This document shows, piece by piece, positions 50,456-51,291 of a stretch of 64,000 nt of DNA. Origin of the DNA: Hoeflea sp. IMCC20628 (GTDB lineage Bacteria; Pseudomonadota; Alphaproteobacteria; Rhizobiales; Rhizobiaceae); contig NZ_CP011479.1 in NCBI RefSeq assembly GCF_001011155.1, positions 3,924,501-3,988,500 on the forward strand, written 5' to 3'. Each line of letters opens with the position of its first letter. Positions within the stretch are counted from its first letter, which is position 1. The notes beneath the pieces were generated by a model that was not told the DNA's origin, made no database searches, and saw only the letters and a program-made list of their open reading frames with translations. Made by a program: the position numbers and the translations under genes.

Positions 50456-50485
50456 CTTGCGAAGCCGCATGGAAGTTCCCATATT
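50456..50485 (+). promoter_or_regulatory. RpoH (sigma-32)-like heat-shock promoter of hsp20
   Basis: CTTGCG at 50456-50461 and CCCATATT at 50478-50485 are separated by 16 bases, close to the RpoH pattern of a CTTG -35 box and a CCCATnT -10 box. Transcription would start near 50492, giving a leader of about 55 bases before hsp20. Confidence 0.6.
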
Positions 50486-50492
50486 GGGTCCA

Positions 50493-50549
50493 TGCCGGAT
50501 GCCGATTGCGGGTCTGGCGCCTGTCGCTTGAGAACGAGGACAAGCCATG
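50493..50549 (+). ncRNA. ROSE-like RNA thermometer in the hsp20 5' leader
   Basis: Two hairpins fold between the predicted transcript start and the AUG. The first pairs 50494-50499 with 50513-50518. The second pairs UGUC (50522-50525) and CUUG (50527-50530) with CGAG (50535-50538) and GACA (50539-50542), with a bulged G at 50526 and an AGAA loop. This buries the whole GAGGA ribosome site (50536-50540). UCGCU at 50524-50528 matches the conserved UYGCU of ROSE elements, which open on heating to allow translation of rhizobial small heat-shock genes. Confidence 0.65.
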
Positions 50550-50978
50550 TCACGAATGACGCCCTTTTCGAGCCCGCTGCTGCTGGGCTTTGACACGATG
50601 GAAAAGACCCTGGAGCGGATCGCCAAGGGGTCCGAGGGCTATCCACCCTACAACATTGAACGGATTCGCGCCTCCGCCGACGGCTCCAATGCCGAGCGGC
50701 TCAGGATCACGCTGGCGGTTGCCGGATTCTGTGATGACGACCTTGAAGTCACCACGGAAGAAAACCAGTTGGTCATCCGCGGCCGGCAGGCTGACGCCGA
50801 TGGGCGGGAATATCTGCATCGCGGCATCGCGGCCCGGCAATTCCAGCGGATGTTCGTGCTGGCTGACGGGATGCAGGTGACCAGTGCGGAACTGAAAAAC
50901 GGATTGCTTTCGGTGGATCTAATTCGACCCGAACCGGAGCGTATGGTGCGGAAAATTAACATTTCCGTCAGAGACTGA
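50547..50978 (+). CDS. Small heat-shock protein (Hsp20/alpha-crystallin)
   Basis: A 143-residue IbpA-type chaperone. MTPFSSPLLLGFDTMEKTLERI and PPYNIERI are the usual N-terminal arm of alphaproteobacterial Hsp20, followed by an alpha-crystallin domain (about 35-130) with LRITLAVAGFCDDDLEVTTEENQLVIRGRQ and ELKNGLLSVDLIRPEPE. It binds unfolded proteins during heat stress. GAGGA lies just before ATG 50547 but is predicted to be paired in the leader hairpin. DUF1150 follows after 55 bases. Confidence 0.95.
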   Translation: MSRMTPFSSPLLLGFDTMEKTLERIAKGSEGYPPYNIERIRASADGSNAERLRITLAVAGFCDDDLEVTTEENQLVIRGRQADADGREYLHRGIAARQFQRMFVLADGMQVTSAELKNGLLSVDLIRPEPERMVRKINISVRD

Positions 50979-51033: not shown

Positions 51034-51291
51034 ATGATTGCCAAATCTGGAAAAAACCAACTGTCCGCCAACGATCTGGCGCTGCTCGGCGCAGGCAAGG
51101 TCGGCTACATCCGCAAGATGCGTTCGGAAGACGTCATTGCCCGGTTCCCCGATGCGCCGGAGCTCAATCCCGGCCTCGAACTCTGGGCCTTGTTTGGCGC
51201 CGATGGCACACCGATTCTTTTGACCGACAACCGCTCAAGCACGTTCTACCGTGCCGCTGAGGACGAACTGAAGACCGTCGCGCTGCACTAA
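51034..51291 (+). CDS. DUF1150 family protein
   Basis: An 85-residue protein with LALLGAGKVGYIRKM and a C-terminal ELWALFGADGTPILLTDNRSS, the DUF1150 signature of alphaproteobacteria. It nearly always follows Hsp20 and is probably co-induced. GGAGGAAAT precedes ATG 51034. Function unknown; a strong terminator follows. Confidence 0.9.
   Translation: MIAKSGKNQLSANDLALLGAGKVGYIRKMRSEDVIARFPDAPELNPGLELWALFGADGTPILLTDNRSSTFYRAAEDELKTVALH

Follow-up and report, generated by a model that had tools for sequence, protein, structure and literature searches.

How the hsp20 gene of Hoeflea sp. IMCC20628 might be kept silent during growth and released by heat is the question raised by the short leader in front of it. 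The gene was studied within a window of 64,000 nucleotides, to which all coordinates refer unless another locus is named. It lies at 50547..50978 on the + strand (ATG at 50547), encodes a protein of 143 aa recognised by Pfam as HSP20 (E 7e-18) and has its closest named orthologues in Hoeflea. A nucleoside hydrolase gene lies upstream in divergent orientation. Directly 3' of hsp20 stands a DUF1150 gene (51034..51291, + strand; Pfam DUF1150, E 5e-27), which is probably the next gene of the hsp20 transcript, so that the two would be co-transcribed.

An RpoH-type promoter precedes the hsp20 leader

An RpoH-type promoter was located at 50456..50485 on the + strand. It consists of CTTGCG (50456-50461), a 16-nt spacer (50462-50477) and CCCATATT (50478-50485); the letters and coordinates of the element CTTGCG-N16-CCCATATT, as given in a preliminary description of this DNA, proved correct on reading the sequence. 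The pattern occurs once in the window, where 0.03 occurrences are expected. The RpoH1 consensus is reported as CTTGAA-N15-16-CCTATAT and the RpoH2 consensus as CTTGCC-N15-16-CCTATCT (PMC4843759). With CTTG in the -35 element, a spacer within N15-16 and a -10 box CCCATATT that has one mismatch to CCTATAT, the window element has the features of an RpoH (sigma-32) promoter. The RpoH-like reading of the preliminary description fits these consensus sequences (PMC4843759), and the promoter is conserved in named orthologues of the Rhizobiaceae type. A CATAT box was found at -96 to -58 in 77 of the 80 named orthologue leaders, and CTTG precedes it by 20 nt (65 leaders) or 14 nt (11 leaders) in 76 of these 77. 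The 80 named loci rank highest among at least 581 relatives and were selected by protein alone. The predicted 5' leader of about 55 nt extends over 50492..50546 on the + strand; its start was placed by the spacing from the -10 box, and the match to the Rfam family ROSE_3 discussed below begins at 50493.

The leader is predicted to fold into two hairpins

In the MFE fold, hairpin 1 (50494..50518, + strand) has 10 bp, a bulged G50501 and the core AU(G)CC/GGGU. Hairpin 2, the predicted thermosensor (50519..50545, + strand), has 8 bp at 50522-50542 plus two outer pairs formed by 50519-50520 with 50544-50545. The preliminary description had drawn a hairpin of 8 bp at 50522-50542 with one bulged G and with GAGGA fully paired, which is exactly what the MFE fold reproduces. 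UCGCU (50524-50528) is predicted to pair with the Shine-Dalgarno (SD) sequence GAGGA (50536-50540), and the bulged base opposite the SD is G50526. A conserved bulged G facing the SD is already known (PMC9450479).

The single-sequence evidence for this structure is modest: the leader fold reached z = -2.26, and 3 of 200 shuffles were equally good. The energy of hairpin 2 was computed as -6.0 kcal/mol, which lies inside the range of -4.1 to -7.6 kcal/mol given for Pseudomonas thermosensing hairpins (PMC3669281), and as -8.7 kcal/mol with its two outer pairs, which lies outside that range. At 25 C the median accessibility of the SD was 0.18 in the 80 named leaders vs 0.35 at 62 further gene starts in these loci (p 0.0003). 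Computed folding between 20 and 50 C showed no melting, the SD being still paired at 50 C (unpaired <=0.03), and warming from 25 to 42 C barely raised the median SD accessibility of the 80 named leaders (0.18 vs 0.23). The lack of computed melting and this small rise go against a thermometer reading; we attribute them, tentatively, to what the energy model cannot capture.

Conservation carries the case for the SD hairpin

The motif GTYGCT-N3-12-RAGGA was tried as stand-alone evidence and rejected, as it occurs in the genome at chance level (95 matches vs 102 in the reversed control). The case therefore rests on position and conservation. UCGCU had been equated with the UYGCU motif of ROSE elements, and this motif was kept opposite the ribosome site in all 80 named orthologue leaders examined. 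Among 61 genomes searched, the own genome included, 59 gave an Hsp20 match, 4 of them with a distant paralogue only; one of the remaining 55 orthologue loci is cut by the contig, and 54 leaders were scored. TYGCT lies opposite the SD near the start in 46 of these 54, the own leader included, and the 8 leaders in which the regular expression failed include L050, whose start was wrongly assigned. The orthologue module scans covered 126 distinct leaders (of 134), of which 119 form hairpin 2; its bulge base is G in 119/119, and a bulge-free pairing of the SD hairpin is also possible in 10/126. One of the loci collected, from a record titled Bacillus subtilis SK6B4 (L179), is a rhizobial/Brucella-like hsp20 locus and probably stems from a mislabelled or contaminated assembly.

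An alignment was made of 21 leaders, 18 from the genus and 3 from the family, from which L028 and more distant leaders were excluded for bad alignment. In this set 95.4% of the pair cells of the two-hairpin structure were formed, and changes on both sides of a pair numbered 7 vs 1.7 in shuffles, six in hairpin 1 and one in hairpin 2. Because covariation concerns just 1 of the 10 pairs of hairpin 2, the support for this hairpin is conservation rather than covariation. It is the conservation among the compared leaders that makes the predicted SD hairpin a solid observation. An ordinary unregulated leader with an accidental hairpin would agree with the chance level of the motif in the genome and with the modest z-score, but it sits badly with a motif present in all 80 named orthologue leaders examined, with the covariation of hairpin 1 and with the ROSE_3 match, and we regard it as very improbable.

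Relation to the ROSE families

ROSE thermometers are the most common class (PMC3669281). The preliminary description had called the leader ROSE-like, and an Rfam covariance search supported this. ROSE_3 (RF02523) matched at 50493..50552 on the + strand over its full length, model positions 1-69 being aligned entirely and with them the two-hairpin architecture. The score of 27.5 bits (E 0.0047 in 2 kb) is under the gathering cut-off of 43 bits, so that by the Rfam rule the window leader is not a member of ROSE_3. At E <=10, no Rfam family other than ROSE_3 matched across the leader. RF00435 and RF01832 gave no match in the 2 kb around it at E <=10, and other Rfam matches near the leader in these 2 kb lay far under their cut-offs and were discarded. 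In the own genome the window leader is the best of 8 ROSE_3 matches at E <=10; the runner-up scored 20.9 bits, and that of model R1, built here, 19.1 bits. Weak matches are meaningless, since ROSE_3 at E 10 matches in all 14 control genomes. Five weak matches (L002, L003 and L110-L112) were rejected as further thermometers, as their regions show no thermometer-like gene start.

When 151 genomes of the family were searched with ROSE_3 at E <=0.001, under filters so strict that the window's own match is lost, two matches were obtained, both at the same hsp20 leader, and 149 genomes gave none. At orthologue loci, ROSE_3 matched in 3 of 16 at E 0.3 and in 3 of 20 at E 0.5. Orthologue leaders with a match scored 27.5-42.0 bits, none over the cut-off, and three Pseudomonas-like leaders (L285, L289, L293) scored 64-77 bits. 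ROSE_3 is best explained as a short Pseudomonas-type leader resembling the two-hairpin element described in PMC3669281. Across 240 genomes of the class, RF00435 had sub-threshold matches in 5 and none above its cut-off. Near the hsp20 locus of a relative (L026:2311-2462), a Brucella sRNA family matched below threshold (30.2 of 59.8 bits, E 0.01).

The preliminary description had also called the leader shorter than classical ROSE elements. This is correct, and two-hairpin ibpA thermometers of 61-62 nt from Pseudomonas provide a precedent (PMC3669281). The window leader and this short ROSE have in common two hairpins, a leader of about 55-62 nt, a small heat-shock protein (sHsp) gene and a sigma-32-type promoter (PMC3669281), and also a nearly identical hairpin 1 core (GGAUGCCGA...CGGGUC) and a UYGCU/SD hairpin 2. 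They differ in that the window leader comes from another class of Proteobacteria, scores 27.5 bits vs 64-77 for the three Pseudomonas-like leaders, and folds without a linker between the hairpins. With classical rhizobial ROSE (RF00435) it shares UYGCU opposite the SD, the bulged G and the sHsp gene. Classical elements have 3-4 hairpins, the first of which also has an unpaired G in the Rfam consensus, whereas the window leader has two hairpins and no RF00435 match up to E 10. ROSE-G resembles it in the bulged G of the SD hairpin and differs in CUGCU, two opposed bulged Gs and ABC transporter genes (PMC12857270). As the leader of a small heat-shock gene (Pfam HSP20), and judged by its modelled SD hairpin, the window leader is ROSE-type in the wide sense. 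It is very probably a short ROSE-type thermometer of a kind already known.

A model for heat control of hsp20

We consider it highly probable that an RpoH-type promoter acts together with a two-hairpin leader, of which hairpin 2 would hide the SD until heat. The promoter would start the mRNA at about 50492, and the 55-nt leader would form two hairpins. The imperfect helix of hairpin 2, with UCGCU opposite AGGA and a bulged G, would sequester the SD and leave hsp20 untranslated at growth temperature. Heat would open hairpin 2, so that on this proposal transcription and translation would rise jointly. Hairpin 1 would assist as a stable element that stays closed. This analysis itself supplies the sequences, the predicted fold, the conservation and the covariation of hairpin 1. 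That hairpin 2 melts, that hairpin 1 is stable, that the message is repressed and which sigma factor acts are all carried over from studied ROSE elements.

Hairpin 1 carries the same bulged-G module

The preliminary description missed that the bulged-G module of hairpin 2 is found in hairpin 1 as well. The core of hairpin 1, RY(G)CY/RGGY, has the geometry of the SD module UY(G)CU/AGGA, and in both a lone G bulges out of the 5' strand, flanked by pyrimidine pairs. The bulge of hairpin 1 is already drawn in Rfam consensus structures. A prior statement that non-SD ROSE hairpins share the bulged G was not found in the titles, abstract openings and few full papers searched.

The core of hairpin 1 was present in 107 of the 126 orthologue leaders vs a mean of 12.5 (maximum 18) in dinucleotide shuffles. 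Anchored on this core, the four outer pairs were formed in 375 of 423 cells (89%), and in 25-69% when slid by 1-3. By these comparisons the outer stem of hairpin 1 covaries. A sequence-only alignment of hairpin 1 brought its 3' arm out of register. When the bulge base was left free and at least 3 of 4 outer pairs were required, the module was found in 91 of 126 leaders, with G at the best site in 91/91, and was absent from 35. When 4/4 outer pairs were demanded, it was found in 81 of 126, the bulge being T in one of these and G in the other 80. Bulges of length 0 occurred in 1/126 leaders and bulges of length 2, mostly GC, in 19/126. That hairpin 1 shares the conserved kink of the thermosensor may account for its retention.

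The module beyond the orthologues

The own genome holds a second, ibpA-type hsp20 (L064, C1:382790-383570), whose longer leader contains two bulged-G modules upstream and has GTTGCTCTTAAGGAGGA at its SD. By these elements its leader is another predicted ROSE-type element, and Rfam gave no detection at E 0.3 or 0.1. In leaders of ibpA-type paralogues, a set lacking a shuffle control, the module lay upstream of the SD hairpin in 15 of 15 fetched, often twice. It is present in both the ibpA and the ibpB leader of E. coli (ROSE_2, RF01832), which resemble the window leader in the bulged-G hairpin ahead of the SD hairpin and in that R93 of the protein is kept. The predicted E. coli ibpA leader differs from it in having three hairpins with one bulged G apiece. 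In the ibpA leader of E. coli K-12 (L201) the model omits the first bulged-G hairpin, as the ROSE_2 match begins at the 3' end of that hairpin. In four of five distant alphaproteobacterial ROSE matches the module forms the first hairpin and an sHsp gene follows; it is also present in the fifth, for which no gene start was found.

A set of 90 IbpA-type leaders from Pseudomonadota was composed of the 30 top-ranking loci of a single search and 60 loci hand-chosen from its list. It includes three ibpB-like second matches and some wrong starts (at least L225 and L229), which were retained. With 4/4 outer pairs, the upstream module was found in 58 of the 90 leaders (65 modules, bulge G in 65/65) vs a mean of 2.8 and a maximum of 6 in shuffles, in which, as in all these module statistics, the leaders are related to one another and the shuffles ignore phylogeny. 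At other gene starts it was found in 2 of 176, with G in neither. It occurred in 22 of 39 IbpA leaders outside the class and in 36 of 51 inside. Two-base bulges were found in 19/90 leaders vs 2.0 in shuffles. When scans were anchored on the core, 67/90 leaders carried it vs 11.8 (maximum 21) in shuffles, and 89% of outer pairs were formed vs 34-49% when slid. When the region 5' of the SD hairpin was folded by MFE without a template, G made up 99 of the 118 single-base bulges on the 5' strand; the shuffles gave 7 of 50 and the 176 control starts 19 of 113. Bulges on the 3' strand showed no G bias (4/23), and the fold of 11 of the 90 IbpA leaders had no G bulge. The G module is no signature of the genome at large, since sequence outside leaders holds it about once in 9,000 strand-bases (22 in 198,260). 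Six ibpA leaders of one genus (L214-L219), which appears to be Vibrio-like, keep the SD module and lack the upstream bulged-G module, which makes them a natural comparison for the role of hairpin 1.

Possible roles of hairpin 1

What the 5' hairpins of ROSE-like elements do is described as not fully understood (PMC3669281). In Pseudomonas, hairpin I stays closed up to 50 C; its deletion kept the heat response, with induction rising from 4.3 to 9.8 fold and from 6.4 to 8.7 fold (PMC3669281). As hairpin I is closed and dispensable, a labile bulge is not required there for sensing, and as it does not melt, lability is no explanation for the conserved G. Disruption of the hairpin I stem led to derepression at 25 C through misfolding (PMC3669281), which makes the deletion data hard to interpret. 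Hairpin 1 could be a mere stabiliser of the 5' end or a folding guide, its bulged G being inherited or tuning stability or coaxial stacking, and we give this slightly less than an even chance. Such a role was suggested for Pseudomonas hairpin I, and the derepression at 25 C caused by stem disruption speaks for it (PMC3669281), but stability alone demands no G in the bulge while loop and outer stem vary freely.

Another role is suggested by the sHsp itself. In E. coli, IbpA binds to the 5' UTR of its own message and represses the translation of ibpA and ibpB; its R93 is irreplaceable, the R97 position needs a positive charge, R93 and Y34 are conserved in alphaproteobacteria according to the authors, and V. 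harveyi IbpA self-represses (PMC10474464). In the alignment, the window Hsp20 keeps the equivalents of R93, a residue expected of self-repressing sHsps of the IbpA type, and of R97 and Y34, and has M at the K98 position. R93 was present in 125/125 orthologue and 29/29 IbpA-type proteins aligned. Since it is invariant, its presence cannot be compared with that of hairpin 1, and it was abandoned as a discriminator.

The bulged-G hairpins 1 and 2 could then be putative sites for Hsp20/IbpA oligomers, with self-repression lasting until unfolded clients titrate the protein; hairpin 1 would be retained for protein recognition rather than for heat sensing. We consider this unlikely, with several observations in its favour. 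The bulged G of hairpin 1 is constant while the stem varies (91/91, 80/81 and 65/65), the 176 control starts hold no G module, and the template-free G bias is 99/118 vs 7/50. Both self-repressed E. coli leaders, ibpA and ibpB, carry the module, and the window protein has the R93 and R97 equivalents. Removing hairpin I in Pseudomonas, which stays closed up to 50 C, increases induction (PMC3669281). On the other side, K98 is not conserved (M in the window protein), and 47 of 154 leaders have no module at 3 outer pairs although their proteins have R93. E. coli rpoH is also an IbpA target; it was examined as a second carrier, and no module was found from -240 to +400. The Vibrio-like leaders L214-L219 lack the upstream module, yet V. 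harveyi IbpA self-represses (PMC10474464). No mapped IbpA site on RNA was found in the titles, abstract openings and text parts of the literature searched. A plain structural or stability role of hairpin 1 is more likely than an sHsp site.

Implications

The bulged G of hairpin 1 ties the 5' hairpins of ROSE leaders to the separately discovered self-repression by IbpA, and its conservation in a hairpin that would not melt makes the question of 5'-hairpin function directly testable. ROSE leaders in general might be arrays of one bulged-G hairpin module, of which the last copy alone is a thermometer and the others are candidate sites for sHsp oligomers; we hold this to be rather improbable. If it were true, the sHsp would sense its own free level, and one leader would read both temperature and aggregation.
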